Positions 8,705 to 56,692 of a stretch of DNA of 64,000 nt are shown here, in pieces. The DNA comes from an uncultured Prevotella sp. (GTDB taxonomy: Bacteria; Bacteroidota; Bacteroidia; Bacteroidales; Bacteroidaceae): the NCBI GenBank assembly GCA_900319905.1, contig ONQB01000010.1, forward strand, positions 1 through 64,000, in the 5' to 3' direction. Both the position numbers and the translations under genes were made by a program. The notes beneath the pieces were generated by a model that made no database searches, was not told where the DNA came from, and worked only from the letters and a program-made list of their open reading frames with translations. Numbering within the stretch: position 1 is the first letter of the stretch; the number at the start of each line of letters is the position of its first letter.

Positions 8705-9198
8705 GTGTTTTCAGACGACGCAGTCATGAGGTTCCAGGATTGAATACCGCTTCTTTGCCTGACCTTATCTTTTCGGTGTTGTTCTTTTTCATGATAGTAA
8801 CCCACATGCAGAAGGTTGCCGTCAAGGTGAAGTATACTACGCCGCAAGGCACTGAACTGACTCGCTTGACCAAGAAGTCAGCAGTGTCGTATATCTATAT
8901 AGGTAAGCCTTCCCAAGGGCTTCGCTCATCTTTTGGCACTAAGACACGCATTCAGTTGAATGATAAGTTTGCCTCTCCCTCGGATGTGGCTGACTATGTG
9001 AGTGCTGAGCGTGACCGGATGTCGCCTGAGGACCAGCAACAGATGACCGTTTCCATTAAGGCCGACCGTGGCACACAGATGCAGGTGATCAATGATGTGA
9101 AACAGGCTTTGCGCATAGCCAAGGCTTACCGCATCAGTTATTCTGCTACAGAAATGAATAAGGAAATTAATAAGGGGGATGTATCAAAATTGGAGTAG
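8701..9198 (+). CDS. exbD: ExbD/TolR-family protein (second)
   Basis: 165 residues. One N-terminal membrane helix carries the conserved aspartate in LPDLIFSVLFFFMIVT (Asp21), followed by a periplasmic domain ending TVSIKADRGTQMQVINDVKQAL, typical of ExbD. Two non-identical ExbD proteins in tandem are common in Bacteroidetes. The last eight codons (KGDVSKLE) and the stop lie in the left arm of the palindromic element at 9172-9320, so the insertion or growth of that element has written the C-terminus of this protein. Confidence 0.9.
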   Translation: MSVFRRRSHEVPGLNTASLPDLIFSVLFFFMIVTHMQKVAVKVKYTTPQGTELTRLTKKSAVSYIYIGKPSQGLRSSFGTKTRIQLNDKFASPSDVADYVSAERDRMSPEDQQQMTVSIKADRGTQMQVINDVKQALRIAKAYRISYSATEMNKEINKGDVSKLE

Positions 9199-9320
9199 TT
9201 CAGAAGTTCAGAAGTTCAGTCAAATGCATAAGTATCTGATAATAAGGTATCATTATAGTAATGACTGAACTCCTGGACTTCTGAACTCTTGGACTTCTCC
9301 AATTTTGATATACCCTCCTT
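9172..9320. repeat. Palindromic dispersed element, copy 1
   Basis: The left arm (about 9172-9195, ending GTATCAAAATTGGAG) and right arm (9297-9320, starting CTCCAATTTTGATA) are inverted repeats. Inside are AGTTCAGA-type short repeats, their complement GGACTTCTGAACT, and an AT-rich core (about 9220-9265). The core is nearly identical to the reverse complement of the core of copy 2 at 33131-33288. The element lies between the convergent exbD and lolA-like genes and could terminate transcription in both directions. Confidence 0.9.
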
Positions 9321-9364
9321 ATTCTGATTGTTACTCCGTATCAATGACGGATTGTTCTTTATTG

Positions 9365-9964
9365 TTAAGGATTGAATACCTTATCGTTGACTGATGCTCC
9401 GAATCGGAAGTTGGAGAAGTTATATTGTGTATATCCACGACTGCTGTTGAGCTTCAGAGTTTCCAGTGCACCTGTGCGCTTGTTGATTTCCAGTACAAAT
9501 GAAGTGAACATCAGCCGTTTGGCCTGCGCTGGTATCATCGTAACCACCACGTTGCCACTCTGTTGCGTTACTTTCACTCCTTGTATGTTGGAGATGTTGG
9601 TCTTGCCGCCTGAGAGCACGCTCAGCAGCACGGCTTTGAAAGCTGCAAACTGGCTTGCGGTCTTGGCCGAGGCAACGTGCTTGTGTCCGCCCATCACCAT
9701 GGTAAAGGTGTTGCCATTCATGACGAGTTGCTCTTTTCCATTGTTGGCCGTGATGGCCACCTTGTTGGGGTCTTTCATGTAAAGAGCACCGTCGTACGAT
9801 TTGTTTTTTGTCATGGCTTTGTTGTGTTTCACCATGACAGCGGTAGCCGAGGCTGTTTTCGCGCTTTTGTAGCGGCTCACGGCTTCGGTGAAAGCGGATT
9901 CCTGAGCGAATCCCATGGTTACTGTCAGCATTGACAGTAACATCATCAATACAATCTTTTTCAT
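9365..9964 (-). CDS. LolA-like outer-membrane lipoprotein carrier
   Basis: 199 residues with a signal peptide ending MGFAQ (about residue 21), then a LolA-type half-barrel with strands such as GALYMKDPNKVAI and VVVTMIPAQAKRLMF. LolA homologues in polyketide-lipid clusters are thought to ferry a lipid product through the periplasm rather than lipoproteins. It is the last gene of the minus-strand operon that also encodes ketosynthase, ACP, MMPL exporter and oxidoreductase, 42 bases after the oxidoreductase stop. Housekeeping LolA cannot be excluded from sequence alone, but the context favours the cluster role. Confidence 0.8.
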   Translation of the reverse strand: MKKIVLMMLLSMLTVTMGFAQESAFTEAVSRYKSAKTASATAVMVKHNKAMTKNKSYDGALYMKDPNKVAITANNGKEQLVMNGNTFTMVMGGHKHVASAKTASQFAAFKAVLLSVLSGGKTNISNIQGVKVTQQSGNVVVTMIPAQAKRLMFTSFVLEINKRTGALETLKLNSSRGYTQYNFSNFRFGASVNDKVFNP

Positions 9965-10006
9965 TGAATCTGTCTGATTATTTATGACGTTAATGATATT
10001 TCTCTG

Positions 10007-11533
10007 TTAAGCCTCTATGAGCTTTTCCCACATTCTCTGCCGTCCGATGATTTCAGCGCAGGTTATGAGTGCAGTCATTGTGACGCCCTCCACGCCATGC
10101 ACCATCAGGCTTTGGCCGGTGAGCAGGAGGTTGGGCTCAGGTGTGCGCGGCGAGAGGAAAGTTAGCAGTGGGTTTGCGCAATCCTTTCTCAAGCCAAAGG
10201 CGGAGCCGCAGGGCGTATGTGTATAGTCGCGGTAGGTAAGTGGCGTGCTGATGTATTGTGCCTCAATGGCCTCTTTCAAGTTGGGCACGACGGTAGCCGC
10301 CAGGTCGATACATTGCTCGGCCTTGCGCGTCTTCCATTGGTTGTAGTCTTGGCTGTTGTTTGTCTGCCGGTGCCCCAGACTTGTTGTTTCCCACGGCTTG
10401 CATTCTACCCAGTCGACAGGAGTAAGCAGGTCTATCTGCCTCACGTAGGTGTCGTGGTCTTCAGGCACTCTGTAGCTCACCATCACTCCGCTGACGGGAT
10501 GGTCTTTTTCGAAGTGCTCCCACAGATTGGGTCTTGCATAGATATGCTCATTATGGTTTACGTAGGGCAGAGTGTGCGGCTTGATGACGAGCGATACAGT
10601 CAGCATGCCATACGTGTTTTCCATCATATCCAAGCGGTAGCGCATACTCTTTTTCACTACCTTGCTTTCACTGATAAGGTCGATAGTCAGCTTCGGATGG
10701 ATATCACTGATGAAGCGGTCGGCCTCATAGCGCTCGCCATTGGTACAGACGGCGGCTACTATATGTCCGTCCTCCTCAACGAGATGTTCTACCTCAGCGT
10801 TGCAGATCACTTCGCCTCCATGCTGACGTATGCCGTCAAGCAATTTGTTGACCAGCAGATTGCCGGGACCGCGCAGGCGCCAGCTGCTGGCTATGTAGCT
10901 GCTGTTGATGTGGGCCAGGGTATAGAGCGGGAGCGTGTCTTTGCTTAATTCGATGCGTGAGGCGTTGCCTGACAGTACGTTGATGAGTGTTGAGTCGTGA
11001 AAATGACTGTTCAACCATTGCCACGCTGAAGTAGAGAGGGAGGACCCATAGGTGGCGTATATGTTTTGCAGATCACAGGCTTGCGATGAGCGGAGCAGGT
11101 CAAGCTGTTGTTTGCTGTATCCATCCAGCATGCTGATGTAGTCATTCAGCGCTTTCCGCTCTTCTGGGAATCGTTTGGCCAACGTGTCCACAAAGTTGTC
11201 ATAGCCTTGTGCGAAGTCGTAGGATTCGCCGTTGATATGGATGCGGTCAAAGCAGTTTTCATCCATTCGCACCCATGGCAACTGCATCAGGCCCAGCATG
11301 CGGAACGACTGGTAGACGGGACCTTTGTCAAGTCCTCCTACATAGTGCAGACCTGTGTCAAAGTCGAGGTTCTTGCGCCTGTAGCTTTGCATGCAACCGC
11401 CCGGCTGGTTTTCGCGCTCCAGTATCAGCACGTGATACCCCTCGCTGGCCAGAATATGGCCACAGGCCAGCCCGCCGAGTCCACTGCCTATAATGATGAT
11501 GTCGGGATGATGGTTTGGTGTCGTCTTTGTCAT
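10007..11533 (-). CDS. NAD(P)/FAD-dependent oxidoreductase, carotenoid desaturase/retinol saturase type
   Basis: 508 residues. The N-terminus has the dinucleotide-binding motif IIIIGSGLGGLACG (G16-G21) with an acidic end ILERENQPGGC, and the protein shows the phytoene desaturase / retinol saturase layout to the C-terminal FAD motif (NLLLTGQSLMVHGVEGV). Family members saturate, desaturate or isomerise conjugated polyenes. In this operon a polyene-type lipid is a plausible substrate (inference). It starts 14 bases after the MMPL gene stop, so it is part of the same transcript. Confidence 0.85.
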   Translation of the reverse strand: MTKTTPNHHPDIIIIGSGLGGLACGHILASEGYHVLILERENQPGGCMQSYRRKNLDFDTGLHYVGGLDKGPVYQSFRMLGLMQLPWVRMDENCFDRIHINGESYDFAQGYDNFVDTLAKRFPEERKALNDYISMLDGYSKQQLDLLRSSQACDLQNIYATYGSSLSTSAWQWLNSHFHDSTLINVLSGNASRIELSKDTLPLYTLAHINSSYIASSWRLRGPGNLLVNKLLDGIRQHGGEVICNAEVEHLVEEDGHIVAAVCTNGERYEADRFISDIHPKLTIDLISESKVVKKSMRYRLDMMENTYGMLTVSLVIKPHTLPYVNHNEHIYARPNLWEHFEKDHPVSGVMVSYRVPEDHDTYVRQIDLLTPVDWVECKPWETTSLGHRQTNNSQDYNQWKTRKAEQCIDLAATVVPNLKEAIEAQYISTPLTYRDYTHTPCGSAFGLRKDCANPLLTFLSPRTPEPNLLLTGQSLMVHGVEGVTMTALITCAEIIGRQRMWEKLIEA

Positions 11534-11547
11534 CTGGTTTGTTGTCT

Positions 11548-14040
11548 TTACTTCTTAATTTTCCTGAATATAGCCGGCTGCAGCACGTAGGAGAGAATCA
11601 CTGCCGAGAGCAGGCCGACGAGAGTGGAGAATCCAACGCTTTTAATGGCTGGGTGCTTGGCGATAAGCATTGACGATACCGTGACTACAAGTATGAATGC
11701 CGAGAAGAAAATGGCACTCTTGTGGAGCTGCAACAGACGGTTGTTGTCGCTGCCGTTTACGTTGTTGTGGCCAATGAGTCCGTTCATGACGAAGATGCTA
11801 TAGTCGACGCCGATGCCGAAAATGAACGTTGAGATGATGATGTTGAGTAAGTTGAATTTCATGCCGAAGATATCCATGGCACCGAGCACGATGATCCAGC
11901 TTAGGAGAATAGGCATGAAGCCAAGCAAGGTGTAACGGATGTTGCCGCGGAAACTTATCAGCAGCACGATGAACACAAAGCCCATCGAAACCCACTGCAG
12001 AATGTTGAAGTCGCTGTTCAATTTAGCCAGAGTGTCCTGCGTGTAATAAGACGTGTCAAGCACCATCATATTGGGCTCGTCGCCGATGGCACGTGTGATG
12101 CGGTCGTAGGCGCCGCCTTTGTCGCGTTCCGTGGCCTTGTCGTATTTCACGGAAGTGAAGCACAGATATTTCCCATCGTACGTTTTTTCCATAAGTGTGG
12201 AGAGGTAGCCGGGTGGCACAATGCCGGCCTCATACAATTTGCTGGGATGATAGTCAGCCTTGACAGCATCGAAGAAGGGATCAAATGCGTCGGGTGTAAA
12301 GCCTGCTGAAGCAGCAGTGGCGGCAATCAGCTGTCTCACCTTATTCACCCTTGCCGGTGTCCAGTAACGCTTCCATGCGTTGATACGCTGTTGCTGTATC
12401 TTTTCGGGTACCAACAGCTGGTTTGTCGGAGTATAGCCCTTTACGAGTCCGAGCTTCTTCAGACTATCGAGCTTATGTTCCAGAGCGTCGAAATTGTTAA
12501 GTGCATCCTCCATTGAGCTTCCTGTCGAGGCAAAGTACTTAGAGCCAATGCCACTGGCTGTCTTACTGGCCAATAGATTCTCGGAGTGTACCACCTCAGG
12601 CGACCGATAGCCGAGGTTGTTGAGATTGGTGTCGAAGTTTGTGCCTTTGACCGCCCACACGCAGATGCATACGACGACAATCGTGCAGATGACTGCAATC
12701 AGCGGTTTCTTGCGGTCGAAGGGGTAGTTGTTGATGCGGTCGATGATGGCGAAGGCCTTCTTGTTGAATCGGTTCTTCTTGGTGTCAAGCAGTTGCGGCA
12801 GGAAGATGAGTGAGAAGAAGGTTGTACCGACGATGGCGAAGGCTGCGAAGAGTCCGAAGTCCTTAAGCAGGTCGGTGTTGACGAAAATCAGTCCCATGAA
12901 TGAACCGATGGTAGTGAGGCAGCCAAGGAATACCGGAACAGTCTCGTCGCGGAGCACTTTCTCCGGGTCGGTCACATACTTATAATGGGTGAGCACATGC
13001 AGCACATAGCTCATGGCTACGCCCAGCACTACTGCTCCAATGCCCAATGCAAGGAGCGAGAACCTGCCCTCGATGAAATACATCATAGCGAGTCCGAACA
13101 AGGTGCCAAAGATTACGGGCAGGATGAGCAGTGGCAGGGTATCCCAATTGCGGAAGCAGATGAAGATAAAAACGAGCACGTTGATGAATGCACCAAGCAG
13201 TGTGGTGGTCAGATCGTGTTTGATGGTCGTGGAGTTATAGTAACCGCTGGCGGGAGTACCATGATAACAGACGCTGATATTGGGGTGAGACTTAGTGAAA
13301 CGTTCAATTTCGTTGTTGAGCATCTCGAACAGTCTGTTGCCCTGTCCGGTATCTGTGGCAGAAAATCTTGGAGTGATAAAGGCAATGCAAACAGTACCGT
13401 CGGGCACGAAGAAATGTCCGTCAATAGTTTTGAAGCCACCTTGCGATCCGGCGAAAAGTGGCTTCATCCGCTCAGCCAGCAGGTTGCGCATGCCCATGGG
13501 ATCCATCTGTATGAGTTCGGGATAGGTAGAGCCAAACTCGCCTTCCATGTCTTCGCTGTTTTTCGCCATTTGCTGTTGGAAGTGTTCGGTGGTGAGCAGA
13601 GAGTCCATGTGTGCATAGACCGTCGTGTCGATGTAAGCAGGGAAATGGGCTGTCATGTAGTCGATGGCATCGCCCATGATGTCTTCGGGTATCTGGTAGA
13701 AGACGTCGCTGATGACTCGCTGATTCTTTGGCTGGTGACGGTCGGTGGCTTCCAATGAGTCGATAAAAGCGTCGGCAGCAGCGGCTATACTGTCAGGGCT
13801 CATACCTTTAGGTCCCTCAAACAAGAGGTAGGTCTTGTCTTTGATGCGCAGGTCGGCGAAGGCAAGCTTGGTGGTTCCGTCTGGATTGCGTGACGACGGC
13901 ATCAGCTTGTTGAGGTCTTCTTCAAGTTGTATGCGGGATGCGAAGAAACCGAAGAATGCAAACAGAAAAATCATCGTGCACCAAAAGACAGGCCGATGAT
14001 TGCGGAAATAATGGTATATCTTGATTACAATCTCTGTCAT
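11548..14040 (-). CDS. MMPL/RND-family lipid exporter
   Basis: About 830 residues with the RND/MMPL duplicated plan: an N-terminal helix (about 12-32), a large periplasmic loop, five further helices, then the same arrangement repeated (VSMGFVFIVLLISF, GFMPILLSWIIVLG, FGIGVDYSIF). MMPL proteins use the proton gradient to export lipids and polyketides. The start at 14040 (MTEIVIKIYHY) is chosen over an upstream ATG at 14088 because the intervening 16 residues are not membrane-like and lie in poorly coding sequence. A 195-bp gap separates it from the ACP gene, the only large gap in the operon. Confidence 0.88.
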   Translation of the reverse strand: MTEIVIKIYHYFRNHRPVFWCTMIFLFAFFGFFASRIQLEEDLNKLMPSSRNPDGTTKLAFADLRIKDKTYLLFEGPKGMSPDSIAAAADAFIDSLEATDRHQPKNQRVISDVFYQIPEDIMGDAIDYMTAHFPAYIDTTVYAHMDSLLTTEHFQQQMAKNSEDMEGEFGSTYPELIQMDPMGMRNLLAERMKPLFAGSQGGFKTIDGHFFVPDGTVCIAFITPRFSATDTGQGNRLFEMLNNEIERFTKSHPNISVCYHGTPASGYYNSTTIKHDLTTTLLGAFINVLVFIFICFRNWDTLPLLILPVIFGTLFGLAMMYFIEGRFSLLALGIGAVVLGVAMSYVLHVLTHYKYVTDPEKVLRDETVPVFLGCLTTIGSFMGLIFVNTDLLKDFGLFAAFAIVGTTFFSLIFLPQLLDTKKNRFNKKAFAIIDRINNYPFDRKKPLIAVICTIVVVCICVWAVKGTNFDTNLNNLGYRSPEVVHSENLLASKTASGIGSKYFASTGSSMEDALNNFDALEHKLDSLKKLGLVKGYTPTNQLLVPEKIQQQRINAWKRYWTPARVNKVRQLIAATAASAGFTPDAFDPFFDAVKADYHPSKLYEAGIVPPGYLSTLMEKTYDGKYLCFTSVKYDKATERDKGGAYDRITRAIGDEPNMMVLDTSYYTQDTLAKLNSDFNILQWVSMGFVFIVLLISFRGNIRYTLLGFMPILLSWIIVLGAMDIFGMKFNLLNIIISTFIFGIGVDYSIFVMNGLIGHNNVNGSDNNRLLQLHKSAIFFSAFILVVTVSSMLIAKHPAIKSVGFSTLVGLLSAVILSYVLQPAIFRKIKK

Positions 14041-14149
14041 AATGATTACTAATCTGGCCCTTGGACAATGTGGAAATCCTCGCCACAACGAGAGGCTAAT
14101 GACCCAAGTTCAGGATGAGAGGGGCTTAGGGCATTAAAAAAAGTCGGCC

Positions 14150-14203
14150 TCAACCTTTCATGTCAATGTCCGCATAGATCGCGTGAGCGTCCTGTGCGGC
14201 CAT
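14150..14203 (-). other. Short open stretch in the ACP-MMPL gap, possible gene remnant
   Basis: On the minus strand an ATG at 14203, overlapping an AAGGAG Shine-Dalgarno-like string, opens a 17-codon frame (MAAQDAHAIYADIDMKG, stop at 14150-14152). The same frame is open upstream for about ten codons to just after the ACP stop. The peptide looks more like the end of a protein than a full gene. It may be what is left of a lost operon gene, or chance. Confidence 0.2.
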
Positions 14204-14235
14204 CTCCTTGAAAAGTATGATTGGCCGACAATCGA

Positions 14236-14481
14236 CTACTTAGCTACGTGGCTGTAGATGTAATCGTACAAATCATTGAAGGTGTTGATCTTGCGGAGAT
14301 CCTCCACAGGCACCTTCAGCTTGTAGGTATACTGAATAACAGCCACAAGGTCTACCAAACTGAGGCTGTCAAGATTAAGGGCATCCTTAAGGTTGGCATC
14401 AGGCGTCATCTTGCTCTCTTCAGTCTCAAACTCTTCTGCCAACACTTTGTTTACTTGCTTTACGATGTCTTCACGTGTCAT
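14236..14481 (-). CDS. Acyl carrier protein
   Basis: 81 residues, acidic, with the phosphopantetheine attachment motif NLDSLSLVDL (Ser39). It carries the growing acyl chain for the ketosynthase encoded 37 bases upstream. Its location in this operon rather than beside fabD/fabF suggests a dedicated ACP for a secondary lipid product. Confidence 0.93.
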   Translation of the reverse strand: MTREDIVKQVNKVLAEEFETEESKMTPDANLKDALNLDSLSLVDLVAVIQYTYKLKVPVEDLRKINTFNDLYDYIYSHVAK

Positions 14482-14518
14482 AATCGTTAACTTTACTAAT
14501 TTATACTTGTGTTAATGT

Positions 14519-15739
14519 TTATAAGTTCTTTATTATCAAGGTGGAATTGGTACCGCCGAACCCGAACGAGTTGCTCAGGAACATGTCGAAGTGTTGTTCG
14601 ATGGTCTCTGGAATGATATTGATCTGAGCAGTTTCATCATCCGGGTTCTCAAAATTGATGTTACCGGCAATGAAACCGTTCTTCATCATCAGCATGGAAT
14701 AGATGCACTCGCTGGCACCTGCCATCCACATCTCGTGTCCTGTTTGGCTCTTGGTAGATGTCACTGGCACTTTATAGTCACCAAATACGCGTGCAATGGC
14801 CAAAGCCTCTCTGCCGTCACCGGCATGTGTAGAGGTAGCATGTGCGTTGACGTAGCCTATCTGTTTGGGATCGATATTGCCATTTCTCAGACACATCTCC
14901 AGACTGGCAGCAGGGCCTTCTACGTTAGGTGTGGAGATGTGGTCACCGTTGCCGGAGAAGCCCCAGCTCATCACCTCTGCCAGGATGGGCGCTCCGCGCT
15001 TGACGGCATGCTCGTAGTCTTCAAGGATGATAGTTGCTGCACCGCCACCCGGCACAAGGCCGTCGCGGTCGCGGTCGAAAGGACGGCTGGCCTTTGTTGG
15101 CTCACTTTCATGGGTAGAGAAGGCCTGTATGCCATCGAAGGATGCTATGCCGTACATATTGTTCTCTTCAGCTCCACCGGCAATGACATAGTCTTGTAAA
15201 CCTTGCGAGATGAGCAGGGCACCCAGACCGATAGCTTGTGAACTGGAGGCGCAGGCAGCGCTTGCAGTCAGGTTGATGCCGCGCAGTTTGAATATCGTCG
15301 CAAGGTTCATGGTGATGGTGGAATTCATCGACTGGAAGATAGCACCACTGCCGCATGCTGCGGTGTCTTTGAACTCGCGGAATTTGTCCAGGCCTTCCAT
15401 CGTGGCTTGTGCCACTGAGTCGTTGCCGTAGATAATGCCTACAGTATGCTTGTCAAGGAAGTCCTGATCCATTTTTGCATTTTCCAATGCCTGACGTGTT
15501 GCCATGTAAGCGTATTGTGCCTCCTCGGGCATGAATTGGCGCTGGTTGCGCTTGATGAAAGGCTTAAGATCGGGCTTTTTGACGTTGGTACACAGCGCAG
15601 AACGGAACCCTGCGTCCTTGCGCTCTTGACTAAAGATTACACCGCTCTTGCCTTGATAAAGGGCATCGCGTACTTCATCCAATGTCGTGCCAAGGCAAGA
15701 CCAGATGCCCATTCCTGTGATTACAACTCTTCTACTCAT
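14519..15739 (-). CDS. Beta-ketoacyl-ACP synthase (FabF type)
   Basis: 406 residues from MSRRVVITGMG at 15739. All three catalytic residues are present: Cys163 in TASAACASSSQ, His300 in NAHATSTHAGDG and His335 in KSQTGHEMWMAG, so this is an active condensing enzyme and not a chain-length factor. The FGFGGTNS C-terminal motif is also intact. A longer frame opens at 15883 but overlaps the upstream GNAT-like gene and adds 48 non-homologous residues, so the inner start is used. It would extend an acyl chain on the neighbouring ACP. Confidence 0.93.
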   Translation of the reverse strand: MSRRVVITGMGIWSCLGTTLDEVRDALYQGKSGVIFSQERKDAGFRSALCTNVKKPDLKPFIKRNQRQFMPEEAQYAYMATRQALENAKMDQDFLDKHTVGIIYGNDSVAQATMEGLDKFREFKDTAACGSGAIFQSMNSTITMNLATIFKLRGINLTASAACASSSQAIGLGALLISQGLQDYVIAGGAEENNMYGIASFDGIQAFSTHESEPTKASRPFDRDRDGLVPGGGAATIILEDYEHAVKRGAPILAEVMSWGFSGNGDHISTPNVEGPAASLEMCLRNGNIDPKQIGYVNAHATSTHAGDGREALAIARVFGDYKVPVTSTKSQTGHEMWMAGASECIYSMLMMKNGFIAGNINFENPDDETAQINIIPETIEQHFDMFLSNSFGFGGTNSTLIIKNL

Positions 15740-15771
15740 ATTATAATATTCGTTTTCTTTTTTCTTTATGT

Positions 15772-16902: not shown

Positions 16903-16909
16903 ACTGACT

Positions 16910-16918
16910 GCAAAGTTA
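16910..16918 (-). promoter_or_regulatory. -7 box for the lipid operon
   Basis: On the minus strand TAACTTTGC, ending seven bases before the ATG at 16902. It implies a leaderless or nearly leaderless transcript. Confidence 0.6.
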
Positions 16919-17049
16919 CGAATTTATTATTAATAACTAACTCTTTCTTTAATGTTATTTTTTTGCTTGTTTGGGGTATATAGTGTTCTAAATTACGCTT
17001 ATACGCTATTTTAATGTGAAATAAAAAGAAGTATTAGAGAAATTAGTTG

Positions 17050-17058
17050 TAACTTTGC
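17050..17058 (+). promoter_or_regulatory. -7 box upstream of the DUF5686 gene
   Basis: TAACTTTGC, 57 bases before the ATG at 17116. With the box at 16910-16918 it makes the 16903-17115 interval a divergent promoter region. Confidence 0.6.
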
Positions 17059-17115
17059 ACAAAACTTTGACAAGGTAGAAAGTTTACATAATATAATAAG
17101 GTTTTGCCACTGATT

Positions 17116-19644: not shown

Positions 19645-19659
19645 TGATTTTGGAGCGAA

Positions 19660-19697
19660 ATGGTGTTGTAATTGTAATAAAATTGCAACACCGTTTT
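19660..19697 (+). terminator. Terminator after the DUF5686 gene
   Basis: ATGGTGTTGTAATT (19660-19673) pairs with AATTGCAACACCGT (19681-19694) with two wobble pairs, followed by a T run (19694-19697). It lies directly ahead of the response-regulator promoter. Confidence 0.8.
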
Positions 19698-19721
19698 AAC
19701 GCAAATGACAAGAATTACGCT

Positions 19722-19730: not shown

Positions 19731-19737
19731 AACCGAA

Positions 19738-20433: not shown

Positions 20434-20460
20434 CACTTGGCGGTGGGATGCCTCTTTCTC

Positions 20461-22550: not shown

Positions 22551-24596
22551 ATGATAAATAAGATTATTTTCTTGGGCATAGCATCAATGCTACCTTCCAT
22601 TTTATGGGCTCAAGATCAACAGCGTCCGACGACAGAGGACGTTGATACTACTCAATTGTCCTATGGTGAGCAGCACCTTCATGAGGTGTCTGTTATGGCT
22701 CGCAAGCCCGGTCTCACTCGATCGACGGGCATACTCAATGGTTTGATGACTCATCAGGATGAGTTGTTCAAGGCCGCCTGTTGCAACCTTGGAGAGAGTT
22801 TCACAACCAATCCGTCGGTGGATGTCAACTATTCCGATGCTGCCACAGGTGCCCGACAAATCAAATTGCTTGGTCTCTCCGGCACTTACGTACAGATGCT
22901 TACCGAGAACCTGCCGGCCTTTAGGGGGGCAGCCTTGCCTTACTCCTTGGGTTACATCCCAGGACCTTGGATGAAAAGCATTCAGGTAAGCAAAGGCTCT
23001 GCCTCGGTGAAGAATGGCTACGAGTCGGTCACTGGTCAGATTAACGTAGAATATCTCAAGCCGGAGGACGAAGAGCATGTCACTGCCAACGTCTACGGCA
23101 ATACAATGGGTAAGTTTGAGGCCAATGCGGAGGCCAATGTCCACTTGAGTAAAAAGGTTGCCACGGAGGTGCTTACTCACTTCGAGAATAATTGGGGGCA
23201 TCACGACAAGAACGGCGATAGCTGGCAAGACTCTCCCAATAACCGTCAATACAATGTGCAGAACCGTTGGTTCGCCAAGACCGGCAACTATATCTTCCAC
23301 GGAGGTCTCTCGCTGATTAATGAGAACCGCAGCTTCGGTCCGGCTATGCATCATACGGCCGTCAATGCCAATGGTGACCCCTGGACAGGCAGCATTGAGA
23401 CCAATCGTTACGGAGCTTACATGAAGCATGCCTTTGTACTCAATCCTGAGCACGGTACCAACATAGCTTGGATGACCGATGCCAGCATGCATCAGCAGAA
23501 TGCCGGCTTTGGCTATAAGGCGTATGATGTGAACGAAAAGAACCTCTACAGCAGCTTGATGCTGGAACATCATTTCACGATGCATCATGAGCTGTCAGTG
23601 GGCGCAAGCTTCAATCATGACTACTTCGGGCAGCGCTACAATCTGTTCAACGACCATAATGCATCCCTCATTCGCGACAATGAAAAGGAGAACGTAGTGG
23701 GAGGCTATGCACAGTATACCTATTCGTTAGGAACCCGTTTCCTGGCAATGGCAGGACTACGTGTCGACCACAGCAATCTCTATGGCACTTTCCTCACCCC
23801 GCGCTTTCACCTCAAATGGCAGGTGAGCGATCTTGTGGCGCTGAGGGCATCGGCCGGTAAGGGCTATCGCAGCGTTCACGCGCTGGCAGAGTACAACTAC
23901 CTCTTGGCCAGCAGCCGTCAGTTGGTGGTGGATCATCTCGATCAGGAGTCGGCCTGGAACTATGGCGTGAGCAGCCAGTGGAATATTCCTTTGGCCAATA
24001 AGTACCTGTTGGTCAATGCCGAATACTACTATACTCGCTTTGGTAATCAGGCGGTTGTAGACTTCGATTCTGACCCACACCAGGTACGTATCAGTAACTT
24101 GAAGGGACTGAGCTATTCGCATGTCTTTCAGATAGATGCTTCTTATCCATTGTTAAAAGGATTGACCCTTACGGCCGCTTATCGCTACAACTATGTCAAG
24201 GAAACCTATAATGGCGTTAGAGCATGGAAGCCGCTGCAGAGCCGGCACAAGGAGTTGTTTACAGCTTCTTACAAGACTCCGCTTGGCATCTGGCAGTTTG
24301 ATGCTACCTTGCAGTTAAATGGAAGTGGCCGTATGCCGACCCCCTATGTGCTCGACGATGGGCAGACCTTGAGCTGGAACCGATACTTTAAGGGCTATGA
24401 ACAGCTCAACTTGCAAGTAACCCGGTGGTTCCGTCATTTCTCTATCTATGTTGGAGGTGAGAATCTGACCAATCGCAAACAGCATAATGCAGTTATCGAC
24501 GGAGCAAACCCTTGGGGCTCCAACTTCGATACAACGATGGTGTATGGCCCGGTGGAAGGTGCTATGGGATATGTCGGCATCCGCCTCAACATCTGA
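22551..24596 (+). CDS. TonB-dependent receptor, metal-uptake type
   Basis: 681 residues from MINKIIFLG. A signal peptide ending LWAQ is followed by a plug domain (about 45-160; IKLLGLSGTYVQMLTENLP and VSKGSASVKNGYESVTGQI motifs) and a 22-strand type barrel ending in GYVGIRLNI. There is no carboxypeptidase-regulatory domain and no SusD partner, so it is of the ferric/copper/vitamin class rather than the SusC class. Neighbouring HMA and Cys/His/Met-rich proteins point to a transition metal such as copper (inference). The frame upstream of 22551 overlaps the previous gene and is not used. Confidence 0.9.
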   Translation: MINKIIFLGIASMLPSILWAQDQQRPTTEDVDTTQLSYGEQHLHEVSVMARKPGLTRSTGILNGLMTHQDELFKAACCNLGESFTTNPSVDVNYSDAATGARQIKLLGLSGTYVQMLTENLPAFRGAALPYSLGYIPGPWMKSIQVSKGSASVKNGYESVTGQINVEYLKPEDEEHVTANVYGNTMGKFEANAEANVHLSKKVATEVLTHFENNWGHHDKNGDSWQDSPNNRQYNVQNRWFAKTGNYIFHGGLSLINENRSFGPAMHHTAVNANGDPWTGSIETNRYGAYMKHAFVLNPEHGTNIAWMTDASMHQQNAGFGYKAYDVNEKNLYSSLMLEHHFTMHHELSVGASFNHDYFGQRYNLFNDHNASLIRDNEKENVVGGYAQYTYSLGTRFLAMAGLRVDHSNLYGTFLTPRFHLKWQVSDLVALRASAGKGYRSVHALAEYNYLLASSRQLVVDHLDQESAWNYGVSSQWNIPLANKYLLVNAEYYYTRFGNQAVVDFDSDPHQVRISNLKGLSYSHVFQIDASYPLLKGLTLTAAYRYNYVKETYNGVRAWKPLQSRHKELFTASYKTPLGIWQFDATLQLNGSGRMPTPYVLDDGQTLSWNRYFKGYEQLNLQVTRWFRHFSIYVGGENLTNRKQHNAVIDGANPWGSNFDTTMVYGPVEGAMGYVGIRLNI

Positions 24597-33130: not shown

Positions 33131-33288
33131 AAAAGGAGGATGTATTAAAATTGGAGAAGTCCGGAAGTTCAGAAGTCCGGAAGTTCAGTCATTGCTATAA
33201 AGATATCTTATTATCAGATACTTATTCATTTGACTGGACTCCTGGACTCCTGAACTTCCGGACTTCTCCATTTAGTTACACCCTTTTT
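33131..33288. repeat. Palindromic dispersed element, copy 2
   Basis: Left arm 33131-33156 (ending AAAATTGGAG) and a degenerate right arm (about 33264-33288, TTCTCCATTTAG...CCCTTTTT), with AGTCCGGAAGTTCAG-type repeats inside and an AT-rich core (about 33190-33230). The core reads as the reverse complement of the copy 1 core with only a few differences over about 50 bp, so this is the same element inverted. It lies between the convergent C10 protease and cmk genes. Confidence 0.9.
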
Positions 33289-42620: not shown

Positions 42621-42621
42621 T

Positions 42622-46284: not shown

Positions 46285-46304
46285 AATCAGCTATATTTTT
46301 CTGA

Positions 46305-46328
46305 GTGACCGGTCTTCGGACCGGCCAC
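46305..46328. promoter_or_regulatory. Hairpin with TTCG loop upstream of GH28
   Basis: GTGACCGGTC (46305-46314), loop TTCG, GACCGGCCAC (46319-46328): a ten-base stem with one A-C mismatch and a stable UUCG tetraloop. There is no T run. It lies between the SusD-linked lipoprotein gene and the secreted GH28 gene and may be an mRNA processing or stability element. Confidence 0.6.
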
Positions 46329-46364
46329 TACAGATATTCATAGAACGATATAGATTTGAATAAC

Positions 46365-47870: not shown

Positions 47871-47902
47871 AACTTAAATTTTAAACCTTAAATACAAGAA
47901 TT

Positions 47903-49309: not shown

Positions 49310-49330
49310 TTTGAGTATCCTGACTAAGAT

Positions 49331-50767: not shown

Positions 50768-50830
50768 TCATTTACTTTAAAAAATCAACTAGATATATAT
50801 AAATTAATTAAATCATTCAATATTACAATT

Positions 50831-52282
50831 ATGAAAGCATTAAATAGTAAAACGGCCCCCAAGCCAGTACGCCCAGAGCGTATTATTCAGTTCGGTGAAG
50901 GAAACTTCCTTCGTTGCTTCGTTGACTGGATCATCTCCAACATGAATGAGAAGGCTGACTTCAATAGCGATGTCGTGATCGTTCAGCCTCTGGGTATGGG
51001 ACGCATAGACAATCTTATGGAGCAAGACTGTCTCTACCATGTCAATCTGCAGGGATTGGACAATGGTAAGCCTGTCAACTCTTTCCGTCTGATTGATTGC
51101 GTCAGCCGTGCACTCAATCCTTATAAGCAGTTTGCTGAGTTCCTGGCTTTGGCTGAGCAACCAGAGATGCGCTTCGTGATTTCCAATACTACTGAAGCCG
51201 GCATCGCTTACGATCCTTCATGCAAGCTCGACGATGCTCCTGCCAGCTCTTATCCTGGCAAGCTTGTGCAGTTGCTGTATCATCGCTACCAGTATTTCAA
51301 GGGCGACATGAGCAAGGGCCTTATCATCTTCCCATGTGAGCTTATTTTCCTCAACGGCCATAAGCTGAAGGAGGTCATCTACCAGTATATCGATCTCTGG
51401 CAGCTGGGTGACGGCTTCAAGGAGTGGTTTGAGAAGGCATGCGGTGTATATGCGACGCTTGTAGACCGTATCGTTCCCGGCTTCCCAAGAAAGGATATCG
51501 ATAAGATCAAGGCTGAGCTTGATTACGATGACAACAATGTGGTGCAGGGTGAGTTCTTCCACCTATGGGTGATTGAGGCTCCTGAGAGTGTTGCCAAGGA
51601 GTTCCCTGCTGACAAGGCTGGCCTCAATGTGCTGTTTGTGCCTAGCGAGGAGCCTTATCATGAGCGTAAGGTGACGTTGCTCAATGGTCCTCACACGGTG
51701 CTTTCACCGGTAGCTTTCCTGTCGGGCATCAATATTGTGCGCGATGCTTGCCAGCATCCTGTAATTGGTCGCTTTGTGCACAGAGTGATGTATGATGAGC
51801 TGATGCCAACTCTCAATCTGCCTCAGGACGAGCTGAAGCATTTCGCTGATGCCGTACTGGAGCGTTTCTGCAATCCGTTCGTCGATCATCAGGTTACTTC
51901 CATCATGCTTAACTCCTTCCCGAAGTATGCCACTCGCGACCTGCCCGGTCTGAAGACATATCTCAAACGTAAGGGTCATCTGCCTGAGGGACTTGTGTTG
52001 GGCCTGGCTGCCATCATGGTATACTATCGTGGCGGTAAGCGCGCCGATGGCGTGGATATTGTTCCTAACGATGCTCCTGAGATCATGGAACTGCTCAGCA
52101 AGCTTTGGAAAGAGGGCGATGTGGAGAACCTTGTCAAGACAGTGCTGGCACAGACCTCTATCTGGGGCGAGGATCTCAACGCTATCCCTGGACTGAAAGA
52201 CCGTGTGGTGTATTACATCAACCGCATCAACGAGGTTGGTATGCTCGATACGGTAAAGGAACTCCTGGATTCAGACAAGTAA
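50831..52282 (+). CDS. uxaB: Tagaturonate reductase
   Basis: 483 residues of the mannitol dehydrogenase family. The NAD-binding N-terminus reads RIIQFGEGNFLRCFVDWI (about 18-35); the C-terminal half has the conserved KVTLLNGPHTVLSPVAFLSG stretch. It reduces tagaturonate to altronate with NADH. A 63-base AT-rich spacer precedes it; uxaA follows after 20 bases. Confidence 0.94.
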   Translation: MKALNSKTAPKPVRPERIIQFGEGNFLRCFVDWIISNMNEKADFNSDVVIVQPLGMGRIDNLMEQDCLYHVNLQGLDNGKPVNSFRLIDCVSRALNPYKQFAEFLALAEQPEMRFVISNTTEAGIAYDPSCKLDDAPASSYPGKLVQLLYHRYQYFKGDMSKGLIIFPCELIFLNGHKLKEVIYQYIDLWQLGDGFKEWFEKACGVYATLVDRIVPGFPRKDIDKIKAELDYDDNNVVQGEFFHLWVIEAPESVAKEFPADKAGLNVLFVPSEEPYHERKVTLLNGPHTVLSPVAFLSGINIVRDACQHPVIGRFVHRVMYDELMPTLNLPQDELKHFADAVLERFCNPFVDHQVTSIMLNSFPKYATRDLPGLKTYLKRKGHLPEGLVLGLAAIMVYYRGGKRADGVDIVPNDAPEIMELLSKLWKEGDVENLVKTVLAQTSIWGEDLNAIPGLKDRVVYYINRINEVGMLDTVKELLDSDK

Positions 52283-52302
52283 TTCACTTTTAGCGAATAA
52301 AC

Positions 52303-53790
52303 ATGTCAGACTACATACAAATCAATCCCTCGGACAATGTGGCAGTTGCTCTGCGCGCATTGCCCAAGGGCTTTTCAGCAACAATCGGCGACAATACGGT
52401 TACGCTGGCTGAAGATATTCCGGCCGGCCATAAGTTCGCATTGCGTGATTTCGCTGAGGGTGACAAAGTCATCAAGTATGGCTTCCCCATCTCTCACACC
52501 ACGCAGGCTGTGGGCAAGGGTCATTGGCTGAATGAGCATAATGTTCATACCAATCTTTCTGGTTTGAGCACTTATACTTACAATCCCACTCATGTCAAGC
52601 CGGTGTTTACCGACGAGCACCGAACCTTCAAGGGCTACGTGCGCAAGAATGGTGACGTTGGCATCCGCAATGAGATATGGATTGTGCCTACCGTAGGTTG
52701 CGTGAATGGCATTGCCAACCGTTTGGCTGAGCAATTGCGCAATGAGACACATTGCGATGGAGTGGATGCCATAGAGGCATTCCCCCATAACTATGGTTGC
52801 TCACAGTTGGGTGATGACCATGAGAACACGCGTAAGATCCTGCGTGACATCGTGCTCCATCCGAATGCCGGTGCTGTGCTCGTGTTGAGTTTGGGTTGTG
52901 AGAATAACCAGCCTGATGCTTTCCGCGAGTTGCTGGGTGATTATGACGAGAGCCGCATCCGCTTCATGGTGTGCCAGCGTGTGGATGATGAAGTGGAAGA
53001 GGGTATGCGCATCTTGCGTGAGCTTTATGCCATAGCCCGTGAGGATCGTCGTACGGATGTGCCATTGTCGAAGTTGCGCGTCGGACTGAAGTGTGGTGGT
53101 TCAGATGGCCTCTCTGGTATCACGGCCAATCCCATGCTGGGCGTGTTCTCAGATTGGCTTGTTGCTCAAGGCGGTACCACGGTGCTTACAGAGGTACCTG
53201 AGATGTTCGGCGCTGAGACACTGCTGATGAACCGTTGTCGCGACGAACGCGTGTTCAACGATACCGTGAGCATGATCAATAACTTCAAGGAATACTTCAT
53301 CCAGGCCGGTCAGCCCATCTATGAGAATCCATCCCCGGGTAATAAGGCAGGTGGCATCTCGACGCTTGAGGAGAAATCGTTAGGCTGTACACAAAAGTCT
53401 GGCAGCTCCACGGTCGAGGCAGTGCTGTCTTATGGTAGTCGTCTCTCTACCCCTGGACTCAACCTGCTTTCCGCTCCTGGCAATGACCTTGTGGCCAGCA
53501 CCGCTCTTGGGGCTGCCGGTTGTCATCTCGTGCTCTTCACGACGGGCCGTGGAACACCTTTCGCAACGTTTGTGCCGACGATCAAGGTTTCCACTAACAC
53601 ACCGCTGTATAACAGTAAGCGTCAGTGGATTGACTTCAACGCGGGTACTCTCGTCAGCGGTGACTCCATGAAAGAGATTAGCAGTCGTTTTGCTGAATTC
53701 GTACTTGACGTGGCAGGTGGACAGCGGACCAACAGTGAAAAGAATGGCTATCACGAGATTGCTATTCTTAAGAAGGGTGTTACGCTCTAA
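52303..53790 (+). CDS. uxaA: Altronate dehydratase
   Basis: 495 residues, the usual family length. The N-terminal SAF-like domain (about 1-95) is followed by the UxaA core with EIWIVPTVGCVNGIANRL, FPHNYGCSQLGDDHENT, LSLGCENNQ and LKCGGSDGLSGITANP motifs; the cysteines fit the iron-dependent enzyme. It dehydrates altronate to 2-keto-3-deoxygluconate. KDG kinase and aldolase are not in the window. Confidence 0.95.
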   Translation: MSDYIQINPSDNVAVALRALPKGFSATIGDNTVTLAEDIPAGHKFALRDFAEGDKVIKYGFPISHTTQAVGKGHWLNEHNVHTNLSGLSTYTYNPTHVKPVFTDEHRTFKGYVRKNGDVGIRNEIWIVPTVGCVNGIANRLAEQLRNETHCDGVDAIEAFPHNYGCSQLGDDHENTRKILRDIVLHPNAGAVLVLSLGCENNQPDAFRELLGDYDESRIRFMVCQRVDDEVEEGMRILRELYAIAREDRRTDVPLSKLRVGLKCGGSDGLSGITANPMLGVFSDWLVAQGGTTVLTEVPEMFGAETLLMNRCRDERVFNDTVSMINNFKEYFIQAGQPIYENPSPGNKAGGISTLEEKSLGCTQKSGSSTVEAVLSYGSRLSTPGLNLLSAPGNDLVASTALGAAGCHLVLFTTGRGTPFATFVPTIKVSTNTPLYNSKRQWIDFNAGTLVSGDSMKEISSRFAEFVLDVAGGQRTNSEKNGYHEIAILKKGVTL

Positions 53791-53899
53791 TAGAATGAAC
53801 TGGCAATAAGGAAACAGGATTGACACTCCAAATTCCAATAGGCCAATCGACATACTATCAATAAGATTTTGCCAAGAATGTGGAATCTTATGACTGAAT

Positions 53900-53938
53900 T
53901 TTCGGGCACATGTGGTAATAGACCTTGTGTGCCCGAAA
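53900..53938 (+). terminator. Hairpin after uxaA
   Basis: TTTCGGGCACA (53900-53910) pairs perfectly with TGTGCCCGAAA (53928-53938) across a 17-base loop. There is no T run directly after it, so termination is uncertain; it may mark the 3' end of the SusC-uxaA transcript. Confidence 0.5.
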
Positions 53939-54047
53939 TGGTAAGGACGTATGCATATTACCTTATTCATATTCTCATGGATGCAACGCAATACTAATCA
54001 AGAACTAAAATACCCATTTAATAATTTCTATCCAATACATCTTGTCA

Positions 54048-56615
54048 ATGAATAGGAAATACTTTTTCAGTTTATTAAGTCTTTTAATAGGACTTTTTAC
54101 TTTTCAGTCGTCCTTTGCCCTCACATGGGACAAAGCGACTTATGCCAATATTGAAAAAAGCGTGAGGCATCCGGTCTTTGGAAGTTACTCATGCAAGATT
54201 ACGGATTTTGGAGCCTCCGTCAAGGCTTCGGCAGCTGCTAACCAGAAAGCCATCAATAAAGCCATTGCCGCTTGTTCGAAACGGGGTGGGGGAAAGGTAA
54301 TTGTTCCCAAGGGGCTTTGGAATACGGGTGCCATTCGCTTACAAAGCGGTGTGAATCTTGTCGTAGACTCCGGTGCCACCCTGCGCTTTGCCTTCGACAC
54401 GAAGCTTTATCCATTGGTTAAGACCTCGTGGGAAGGAATGGATTGTTGGAATTATTCTCCATGCATCTATGCTTATCAGTGTAAGAACGTGGCACTGACG
54501 GGCCAAGGTGTCGTCGACGGAAACGGCAACAATAACACCTGGTGGCAGATGTGCGGAAAAGGCAGCTTTGGCTATTCTGAAGGAAAAACCAAGGAGGCAC
54601 AAGACCTCGGCAGCAGAAGCAAACTGCTGCAGATGGTAGAGGATAAGGTGCCTGTCGACGAGCGGAAGTTTGGTCTGGGCTGTGGCTTGAGACCGCAGTT
54701 GGTGAACTTCGTTGAATGCGATGGCATCCTTATCAATGGTTTAAAGTTTATCAATTCTCCTTTCTGGGTGCTTCATCCGCTTAGAAGCCAGAATATCATT
54801 GTCGACGGCGTGACCGTTTACAATGAAGGCCCCAATGGTGACGGTTGCGACCCTGAAGCCTGCAAGAATGTGATTATTCAGAATTGCACCTTCCACACTG
54901 GTGATGACTGTATCGCCATCAAGAGCGGCCGCAACAATGACGGTCGTCGCTGGAATACGCCCTCAGAGAACATTATCATTCGTCATTGCAAGATGGAGGA
55001 TGGTCATGGCGGTGTCGTCATAGGCTCTGAGATCTCGGGTGGCGTCCGTAACGTCTTTGCTCACGACTGCTATATGGACTCTCCTAATCTTGACCGTGTA
55101 CTGCGTATCAAGACCAACACCATCAGAGGTGGAGTGGTCGAGAATATCTTCATGAAGGACGTCACGGTCGGGCAGTGCGGTGAGAGCGTCTTGCGTATTA
55201 ATCTCAAGTATGAGCCTAAGGAACCTGGTTATCGTGGTTACCAGCCTATTGTTCGTCGCGTGTGTATGGAGAACGTGACATGCCAGAAGAGTAAGTACGG
55301 TGTGCAGGTAAACGGCTTGAGCGACATCACCAATGTGAGCGATGTCACCTTGCGCAATTGCACTTTCAATGGAGTGAGCAAGTCCCCGTTGCTGATCAAC
55401 GGCAAGACGAGCAACATTCATCTTGACAACGTGACGATCAATGGTCAGCTTGTGCTGATGCCTGAGGACCGTCCTTACAAAAACTACTCTCAGTGGATGG
55501 TGGCCTCAGAGATGAAGCGTAATCCCGATCCCGCTTTGCTTGACTTCTCCAAGCGTCCTAAGTGGAGTTACGTGATGGGAATAGAGATGGAGAGCATGCT
55601 CGATACTTATAAGGCATATGGCGACACGGCCATTTTGAATTACCTCTGGCGCTACCCCGCCACGATGATCGATGCGAAGGGTAACATCACTGGCTATAAG
55701 TATGAGGACTATAACCTTGACAATGTGCGCACGGCTAAGTTCATTTATCGTATGAATGAACTCAGGCCACAGACCAACATCGATAAGGCTCTCAAAACTT
55801 TATTCAAGCAGTTGGAGCATCAGCCTCGTACTAAACAGGGCGTGTGGTGGCACAAGGCCATATATGCCAACCAAGTATGGCTTGACGGTATCTTCATGGG
55901 ACTGCCTTACTATACGTTGGCCGCTCCTCATTTCAAGGGACAGAAGAAAGCCGTTAAATATTGGGACGATGCAGTCAATCAGATCACCAAGACGGGTCAG
56001 TTTACTTACGATGAGCGGACAGGCCTGTGGAAGCACGCTTGGGATGAGACACACAAAGCCTTTTGGGCTGACTCCGTCACGGGATTGAGCCGTCACACAT
56101 GGGGACGTGCTATGGGATGGTATGCCATGGCAATGCTTGAGGTACTTGACGAGCTGCCCGACAGTTATGAAGGGAAGGCAAAGGTCAAGGGAATGTTCCA
56201 AAAGGTGATGAAAGCCGTGGTGCGCTACCAGGACAAGAAAACTGGTGTGTGGTATGATGTACTCGATGTGAAAGACCCTCGTAACTACTTGGAATCCACC
56301 TGCTCAAGCATGTTCGCTTACTGTTTACTGAAAGGCTCACGCATGGGATGGCTTGATAGCAGTTATCGTGAAGCGGGTGTGAAGGCTTGGAAAGGCATAC
56401 TGGAACAATTTGTCAGAGTAAATGCAGACAAGACCATCTCTCTTACTCGTTGTTGTTCGGTGAGTGGCCTTGGTCCGGCTCCCGGTCCATATGTGAAGAA
56501 GCCAAATTTCAAGCGCGATGGCTCATTTGCTTATTACATGAGCGAGCCCATACGTGACAACGACGCCAAGGGCGTAGGACCTTTTGTATGGGCCGCGCTC
56601 GAGATGGAGAAATAA
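54048..56615 (+). CDS. GH28-GH105 fusion enzyme
   Basis: 855 residues from the ATG at 54048 (an upstream TTG at 54042 is less likely). A signal peptide (about 1-25) precedes a GH28 domain (about 45-480) with NGDGCDPEAC, TGDDCIAIKSG, DGHGGVVIGSE and LRIKTN, all complete. A GH105 unsaturated galacturonyl/rhamnogalacturonyl hydrolase domain follows (about 505-855; VWWHKAIYANQVWLDGIFMG, SRHTWGRAMGWYAMAML, ESTCSSMFAYCLLKG, GVGPFVWAALEME). The pairing of an endo-type and an unsaturated-end hydrolase suits sequential breakdown of pectin oligosaccharides made by lyases. Such fusions are known in Bacteroidetes. A palindromic element copy lies 30 bases after the stop. Confidence 0.92.
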   Translation: MNRKYFFSLLSLLIGLFTFQSSFALTWDKATYANIEKSVRHPVFGSYSCKITDFGASVKASAAANQKAINKAIAACSKRGGGKVIVPKGLWNTGAIRLQSGVNLVVDSGATLRFAFDTKLYPLVKTSWEGMDCWNYSPCIYAYQCKNVALTGQGVVDGNGNNNTWWQMCGKGSFGYSEGKTKEAQDLGSRSKLLQMVEDKVPVDERKFGLGCGLRPQLVNFVECDGILINGLKFINSPFWVLHPLRSQNIIVDGVTVYNEGPNGDGCDPEACKNVIIQNCTFHTGDDCIAIKSGRNNDGRRWNTPSENIIIRHCKMEDGHGGVVIGSEISGGVRNVFAHDCYMDSPNLDRVLRIKTNTIRGGVVENIFMKDVTVGQCGESVLRINLKYEPKEPGYRGYQPIVRRVCMENVTCQKSKYGVQVNGLSDITNVSDVTLRNCTFNGVSKSPLLINGKTSNIHLDNVTINGQLVLMPEDRPYKNYSQWMVASEMKRNPDPALLDFSKRPKWSYVMGIEMESMLDTYKAYGDTAILNYLWRYPATMIDAKGNITGYKYEDYNLDNVRTAKFIYRMNELRPQTNIDKALKTLFKQLEHQPRTKQGVWWHKAIYANQVWLDGIFMGLPYYTLAAPHFKGQKKAVKYWDDAVNQITKTGQFTYDERTGLWKHAWDETHKAFWADSVTGLSRHTWGRAMGWYAMAMLEVLDELPDSYEGKAKVKGMFQKVMKAVVRYQDKKTGVWYDVLDVKDPRNYLESTCSSMFAYCLLKGSRMGWLDSSYREAGVKAWKGILEQFVRVNADKTISLTRCCSVSGLGPAPGPYVKKPNFKRDGSFAYYMSEPIRDNDAKGVGPFVWAALEMEK

Positions 56616-56644
56616 TAGTAAGTCTTGATATTCTATTAAATACT

Positions 56645-56692
56645 GAGGGTGTATCAAAATTGGAGAGGCTTCTCCAATTTTGGTACACCCTC
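56645..56692. repeat. Palindromic dispersed element, copy 3 (short form)
   Basis: The left arm (56645-56666, containing GTATCAAAATTGGAG) and right arm (56671-56692, CTCCAATTTTGGTACACCC) pair almost perfectly around a four-base loop, GGCT. The arms match copies 1 and 2, but the central ~100 bp is missing. It lies between the convergent GH28-GH105 and GH115-like genes and has T residues on the plus side, so it also looks like a bidirectional terminator. Confidence 0.9.

Follow-up and report, generated by a model that had tools for sequence, protein, structure and literature searches.

The window analysed here is a stretch of 64,000 nucleotides from an uncultured Prevotella sp. (GenBank assembly GCA_900319905.1, contig ONQB01000010.1, positions 1 to 64,000 of the forward strand), and it carries three copies of a palindromic element at the ends of protein-coding genes. 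A first-pass annotation, made from the sequence alone, had placed these copies always and directly between convergent genes, and had interpreted them as a non-autonomous family, resembling either miniature inverted-repeat transposable elements (MITEs) or repetitive extragenic palindromes (REPs), that acts as a bidirectional terminator. When each site was read, all three palindromes proved real, copies 1 and 2 being full-length elements (about 150 bp) and copy 3 a collapsed hairpin of 48 bp. Pfam matches agreed with the named gene neighbours, giving the pairs ExbD/LolA (copy 1), peptidase C10/cytidylate kinase (copy 2), and GH28-GH88/GH115 (copy 3). The features of the copies are as follows.

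9175 to 9317, minus strand: copy 1, full-length element of 143 bp between the exbD-like gene (plus) and the lolA-like gene (minus), which the family model matches over its whole length on the minus strand.
9219 to 9265, minus strand: 47-bp core of copy 1, read directly.
9196 to 9198, plus strand: stop codon of the exbD-like open reading frame (ORF; 8701-9198), within copy 1.
33136 to 33285, plus strand: copy 2, full-length with a degenerate right tip, between the peptidase C10 gene (plus) and cmk (minus), matched by the family model.
33188 to 33234, plus strand: 47-bp core of copy 2, read directly.
56645 to 56692, no strand assigned: copy 3, collapsed and coreless, its two tips forming a hairpin with a 22-bp stem and a 4-base loop, read directly.

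The predicted folds of all three copies were far more stable than those of dinucleotide-shuffled sequences, with z-scores of -12.0 (plus strand) and -10.4 (minus strand) for copy 1, -12.2 and -13.9 for copy 2, and -11.5 and -9.9 for copy 3; in each case, none of 200 shuffles was as stable. The arm GTATCAAAATTGGAG was found at 9181 (plus), 9297 (minus, one mismatch), 33142 (plus, one mismatch), 56651 (plus), and 56672 (minus, one mismatch), and the right arm of copy 2 is degenerate (CCATTTAGTTACACCC). At up to three mismatches, the window holds six arm matches against 1.9 expected, the sixth lying within a gene at 24518; 2 of 100 shuffles also reached six, and the arm alone is therefore weak evidence within the window. 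The near-identical core previously noticed in copies 1 and 2 measures 47 bp, lies in opposite orientation in the two copies, and is identical at 43 of 47 positions, as counted by hand. The location between convergent genes held for all three copies; copy 1, however, is not purely intergenic, because the exbD-like ORF stops inside it.

The observation in the window is right and understated. Below, G000 denotes the window's genome (3.11 Mb in 63 contigs, 86% complete), G150, G365, G367, G225, G062, G009, and G299 denote related genomes, and L and C numbers denote extracted loci and contigs, respectively. A genome-wide arm search, as the first-pass annotation had proposed, gave 133 places in G000 at up to two mismatches versus 5 with a reversed control; at up to one mismatch, the arm pattern occurred at 95 places in G000 and at 0 to 4 in each of 148 other genomes. 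At least 119 hits of the family were found in the examined 38% of G000. When 398 genomes of the genus were searched at the DNA level, with two candidates scored in each, 31 genomes (G000 included) gave a match: full-length matches were seen in G000 and G150 alone, inner-part matches of about 100 bases or longer in G365, G367, and, weakly, G225, whereas those of the remainder were shorter and for the most part octamer arrays. Covariance-model matches numbered at least 149 in G000, at least 55 in G150, and at least 50 in G365, with both strands counted and up to 150 candidates scored each. A pattern scan of named genomes, which possibly left out the window's own genome, gave 19 stretches, of which uncultured Prevotella RUG137 supplied 12, RUG136 6, and Prevotella sp. 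UBA2725 1 (RUG presumably standing for rumen genomes). Besides G000, the family is carried by two related metagenome-assembled genomes of Prevotella. No exact match to three element patterns was found in viral contigs, and no published description of this family was found in titles and openings of papers, which is no proof of its absence from print.

The anatomy of the element was read from a first G000 set of 1.01 Mb, made up of 56 stretches picked for holding hits, plus the window. The element consists, in order, of a tip GAGGGTGTATCAAAATTGGAG (GAGGGTGTATCAAAA), tandem 8-bp units (GAAGTYCR), a 47-bp asymmetric core with the pattern GTCATTAC...CATWTGAC, mirrored units, and a second tip; the 8-bp units of the arms were absent from the earlier description. 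The arm-to-arm length was 139 bp in 24 of 53 arm pairs, with neighbouring classes of 131 and 147 bp, and short hairpins measured 32-51 bp. A core length of 47 bp was found in 58 of 71 cores in G000, 10 of 15 in G150, and 6 of 7 in G365; four further G150 cores from named loci measured 45-72 bp, cores of two other species 38 and 45 bp, and one 68-bp entry from G150 looks spurious. Forms lacking the tips, that is, the terminal inverted repeats, also occur, and every G365 copy read was of this kind. Twenty-four copies of 151 bp showed a mean identity of 84% (61-98%), and their 151-bp consensus with inverted tips is that of a short, multi-copy MITE, which is too short and therefore cannot hold a transposase gene. 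These data supported the earlier view of a non-autonomous, MITE-like family. At gene ends in L010, L166, L243/L311, and L251/L181, we also noted other GC-rich palindromic repeats (of the GGCCGGCC and GGGGCGGCCCTTGTGGCCGTCC types), sometimes nested with the element.

The family bears neither mark of a structured RNA, an Rfam match or covarying pairs. Rfam gave no match at the elements, and arm pairing was no better than expected from independent columns, except at position -19 (62 of 73 versus 51 expected). Two-sided changes were seen in 6 of 25 predicted pairs, yet the covariation term was only -0.3.

To describe the genomic location, genes were called by a custom hexamer model, and element-free gaps of at least 60 bp from the same stretches were used for comparison. 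The 95 sites of the first G000 set comprised 39 convergent, 47 tandem, and 3 divergent sites, 1 site inside an ORF, and 5 at stretch edges, versus 41 convergent, 216 tandem, and 85 divergent gaps (convergent: odds ratio 5.7, p = 1.9e-10; divergent: odds ratio 0.11, p = 6e-7). A second G000 set of 19 stretches held 27 hits (13 convergent, 12 tandem, 0 divergent, 2 edge; gaps 3/45/16), G150 had 33 distinct sites (8 convergent, 18 tandem, 2 divergent, 2 inside ORFs, 3 edge; gaps 11/47/23), and G365 had 12 (6 convergent, 2 tandem, 0 divergent, 1 inside an ORF, 3 edge; gaps 1/30/4). At tandem sites, the element lay a median of 30 bp past the upstream stop and 142 bp ahead of the next start, and 39 of 47 elements were closer to the stop than to the next start. 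From the first set, the placement rule is therefore gene 3' ends, convergent and tandem alike, with divergent promoters avoided, and G150 and G365 show a like tendency. A random distribution relative to gene orientation, named beforehand as the result that would speak against a terminator role, was not found. The claim that copies lie always between convergent genes held for 3 of 3 copies in the window and for 39 of the 89 genome-wide sites lying between two genes; the window's uniform picture is a local accident within a genuine preference for gene 3' ends.

Further signs of termination were found in the flanks of the element. In 28 tandem arm pairs, the mean number of T residues in the 8 nt past the tips was 5.04 downstream of transcription versus 3.54 upstream (Wilcoxon p = 2.6e-4). 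Convergent sites had a mean of 4.45, and 1230 control windows behind genes one of 2.16. The orientation of the core was unbiased (19 sense versus 13 antisense, p = 0.38). The elements thus resemble predicted intrinsic terminators, hairpins that have a U-tract behind them on the transcribed side, less strongly so with other boundary definitions. Element-bearing ends in G000 kept another stem-loop in 14 of 147 cases versus 99 of 321 element-free ends, defined as convergent or with a gap of at least 100 (p = 2e-7), and operon-like ends had one in 21 of 226; in G150, the figures were 4 of 48 versus 56 of 188 (p = 0.0015) and 16 of 196. With a looser detector, the G000 figures were 40 of 147 versus 149 of 321 (p = 7.5e-5). 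The support for a terminator role comes from sequence and not from transcripts. The bidirectional terminator proposed for the window is upheld in its position and sequence signs, with the correction that the putative terminators stand at tandem gene 3' ends as well as convergent ones.

Orthologous gene ends were then compared with those of G150, using 0.64 Mb of partly overlapping loci. Among 167 reciprocal best hits, a 3'-end element was found in both species in 7, only in G000 in 21, only in G150 in 9, and in neither in 130, proportions that are biased because the G000 stretches had been chosen for elements. With a strict detector, stem-loops were scored in 12 of the 30 element-free alleles; among the 30 element-bearing ones, in which the element was masked, there were 2. 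In G150, a perfect stem-loop with a T-tract stands at the lolA end that corresponds to window copy 1, and at L045/L307 the homology reaches the foot of the G150 stem GAGGGCAG...CTGCCCTC, where G000 carries the element. The GH115 end of copy 3 holds a half-length element in G150 (L159:8388-8483), and at the cmk end of copy 2 G150 has neither an element nor a scored stem-loop. Behind cmk in G365 (L230) lies a palindrome of TTGAATG-like heptamer repeats, of similar architecture with another unit. The window itself contains two ordinary stem-loops where the G150 orthologue carries the element.

1868 to 1895, plus strand: ordinary stem-loop with a T-tract behind a gene ending at 1847, unscored by the strict detector (G150 orthologue in L159).
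4101 to 4170, plus strand: ordinary stem-loop region behind a gene ending at 4088, scored by the strict detector.

Where both flanks were homologous, the other species also had the element at 7 of 13 sites when G000 was compared with G150 and at 9 of 14 in the reverse comparison, in which some loci were counted twice. The 14 element-free rows listed corresponded to 13 distinct empty sites, 9 of which showed a palindrome by eye (one weak, one a collapsed element copy). The cleanest empty site is purL, in which G150 carries an in-frame, tip-less copy (L196:5076-5216) that is absent from G000 (L045:16409-16424), PurL being 1315 aa in G150 versus 1268 aa in G000; most of the listed PurL matches, which cover 106 of 120 genomes, run unbroken through the insertion point. 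In G062 (C35:110827-111327), the PurL match is split into two pieces about 60 nt apart, possibly by another in-frame insertion. In both species, the octamer sequence also encodes the N-terminal part of an ORF (L045:18094-18798, L196:2473-3273) that looks to us like a chromate transporter. Copies identical at 98% were found in different gene contexts (C55 and C42). The target-site duplications that the first-pass annotation had suggested looking for did not appear: none exceeded shuffled pairing in 53 arm pairs (offsets 0-9, lengths 2-9).

Several rearrangements were also noted. L073:6949-10755 is inverted between G000 and G150 (L171), with G000 elements near both ends (6770-6885 and 11187-11303), and two adjacent genes at 744-4042 of the window are rearranged in G150 (L159:2728-6065), with an element at the junction. 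The window opens with the 3' end of a group II intron (1-322; Rfam RF00029 at 223-322), the bases ahead of the match looking to us like the final part of an intron-encoded reverse transcriptase, and a tandem array of GGTAGGCAG-like units lies directly behind it (325-600).

Next, candidate mobilising enzymes were considered. The Y1 transposase (PF01797) associated with REPs (REP-associated tyrosine transposase, RAYT) gave no match in the 86%-complete G000, and five Y1 loci, from G150, G365, G367 (two), and G009, had no element within about 1.5 kb, a G299 locus lying outside this set; RAYT was accordingly rejected as the mobiliser, and the REP-like part of the earlier interpretation was not borne out. 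At L235-L237 and L240 (G367, G365, and G150), Y1 genes stand amid other short repeats of their own, none of which is the element. DDE_Tnp_1 matches numbered one in G000 (partial, at a contig end), two in G150, and one in G365, the two G150 genes being, as we read them, IS982-like and IS1380-like. This enzyme type was also set aside: the flanks of the IS982-like gene, the only ones read, carry inverted repeats unlike those of the element. No pair of such tips 0.7-4 kb apart, as expected of an autonomous copy, was seen by eye among the 100 listed of the 133 arm matches.

A search for relatives of the tip gave 77 places in G000 versus 1 for the control. Two identical stretches of 92-97 bp at contig ends, C25:23746-23842 and C28:41047-41138, start exactly with GAGGCTGTGTCAAAA; their outward flanks differ, and they therefore fit an insertion sequence (IS) that broke the assembly. 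The C28 copy lies about 55 bp past a stop codon. Four plasmid records match part of this IS end, one immediately ahead of the transposase of ISBf3, which carries the annotation IS1182-like, and one near an IS66 transposase, and the next bases of the IS end resemble the stretch ahead of the ISBf3 transposase. The tips of ISBf3 read GAGGTTGTGTCAAAA, each followed by a mirrored stretch able to form a hairpin. The element tip agrees with the G000 IS end and with ISBf3 at 13 of 15 bases, against 0 of 600000 shuffled tips, suggesting that the element shares its tip with an IS1182-family IS, the full form of which is not in the assembly.

IS1272, a member of the IS1182 family, reportedly replaces target hairpins without duplications, and some of its older copies had non-hairpin targets, as described in excerpts of PMC5678879. 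TnSha1/IS1272 of staphylococci deletes hairpins, five of which RNA-seq confirmed to be terminators, according to the excerpted text of PMC4923244. An IS1272-like hairpin replacement would explain the location, the missing duplications, and the T-tract bias together. We therefore favour, with a probability of roughly 0.45, a reading in which a non-autonomous palindromic element, multiplied in one Prevotella lineage, replaces hairpins by means of an IS1182-family transposase and serves as an intrinsic terminator in both directions. The transposase would act in trans on the element tips, and the element would be swapped in for a hairpin, usually the gene's own terminator, leaving no target duplication and keeping the flanking T-tract. 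The hairpin of the element would then end transcription coming from the gene upstream or, at convergent sites, from both genes, and some copies, such as window copy 3, would later collapse to the tip hairpin with the terminator form kept. The preference for terminator positions may stem from this mode of insertion as well as from selection.

A number of observations weigh against this reading. Boundaries from the full-length model shrink the T contrast to 4.90 versus 3.81 (n = 21, p = 0.017); the second set, with only 2 tandem copies, shows the opposite bias, giving a pooled contrast of 4.74 versus 3.83 (n = 23, p = 0.034); and 10 tandem tip-less copies gave 3.7 versus 2.6 T of 10 nt (p = 0.39). 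The scarcity of neighbouring stem-loops is weaker when matched for orientation and leftover length (odds ratio 0.42, 12 observed versus 18.3 expected, p = 0.019), and the looser detector gave only p = 0.07 in G150 (15 of 48 versus 88 of 188). Stem-loops in element-free alleles (12 of 30) are no commoner than at ordinary element-free ends (32 of 84), and these alleles are therefore typical rather than special; no palindrome was seen by eye at 4 of the 13 empty sites (L061, L307, purL, and one at L259). The transposase ORF of the IS is absent from the assembly, and chance alone should yield roughly one tip-like match per genome at one mismatch (control 1), albeit not at the end of an IS. Finally, the tip-less forms, among them the purL insertion and all G365 copies seen, do not have the IS-like tip and would require a different mover, and IS1272 itself also used targets without inverted repeats (PMC5678879, in part).

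The nearest competitor is insertion followed by selection, in which a mobile palindrome inserts wherever it is tolerated, selection clears promoters and genes of copies but spares those near 3' ends, where termination is possible, and native terminators decay afterwards, with no hairpin-replacing step. The in-frame purL insertion and the reading frames running into elements, by which the element is shown not to be confined to terminators, fit this course of events, as does the finding that element-free orthologous ends are no richer in stem-loops than ordinary ends; the location alone is typical of REPs too, in the portion of PMC3733652 available. Against it stand the lack of target duplications, the homology that ends at the stem-loop foot at L045/L307, the scarcity of a second stem-loop although many copies are alike, and the IS1182-like tip, so that we regard it as a real possibility with the odds against it. 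A role mainly in protecting or processing mRNA 3' ends, or at the DNA level (nucleoid or supercoiling), would suit long 3'-end hairpins equally and is named as a hypothesis for REPs in the same portion of PMC3733652; the downstream-biased T-rich flanks and the scarcity of other stem-loops point to termination instead and make such a role improbable. In-place growth of terminator hairpins by 8-bp slippage, homogenised by recombination without mobility, would account for arm-to-arm lengths that vary in 8-bp steps and for the heptamer palindrome behind cmk in G365, yet it is very improbable in view of the constant 47-bp core, the 98%-identical copies in different gene contexts, the full-length copies seen in only 2 of 398 genus genomes, and the purL empty site, which already disfavours it. 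Movement of a REP-like element by a Y1 transposase, to which the palindrome, the 3'-end location, and the high copy number would be suited, is likewise very improbable given the lack of a PF01797 match in G000, the five element-free Y1 loci examined in relatives, and the fact that no GTAG or CGTC tag was noticed at the element foot. Taken together, the data supported a MITE, and replacement of hairpins in the IS1182 manner is its best single explanation.

On a more tentative level, and with the balance tipped against it as a whole, hairpin replacement would mean that a transposase-less palindrome, moving in exchange for stem-loops, now makes up a large part of the terminators of one bacterium. 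A selfish element would then be a main terminator type of the species, its 8-bp units would set hairpin length, collapsed forms would be kept for function, and inversions would occur between same-site copies. If the favoured reading is right, it would link the evolutionary turnover of terminators with the spread of hairpin-targeting transposons, would open more than 100 sites of a single genome to tests of whether a mobile element replaces terminators, and would suggest that hairpin-replacing transposition, described in staphylococci, shapes Bacteroidales genomes too.

Several known systems resemble the element in part, as far as the cited excerpts describe them. REPs are likewise palindromes found mostly between convergent or unidirectional genes and sometimes inside genes, but measure 20-40 bp and carry GTAG or CGTC tags, the GTAG ones being tied to RAYTs, features not seen in the element (PMC3733652). 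The BrickBuilt/PgRS MITEs of Porphyromonas gingivalis share the Bacteroidales host, internal tandem repeats, and intergenic location, as well as GAG-N7-CAAAA-like tips (GAGACCTTTGCA) that belong to another IS family, IS5; they differ in their direct repeats of 23 or 41 nt, about 19 BrickBuilt copies, and reported promoter activity, compared with mirrored 8-bp units, more than 100 copies, and terminator signs in the element (PMC4596501). The palindromic elements of Rickettsia are also about 150 bp long and can enter reading frames in frame, as in purL of G150, whereas coding insertion is exceptional for the present element, being seen at 1 of the 95 first-set sites of G000; SPRITE of Streptococcus pneumoniae, from another phylum, is a repeat of Rho-independent-terminator-like form (PMC10969869). 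Compared with IS1272/TnSha1, the element is only about 150 bp long, transposase-less, and found in Bacteroidales, with octamer arms, a fixed core, and a replacement step that we infer; it shares with them the lack of target duplication, the terminator positions, and the IS1182-like tips (PMC5678879, PMC4923244).

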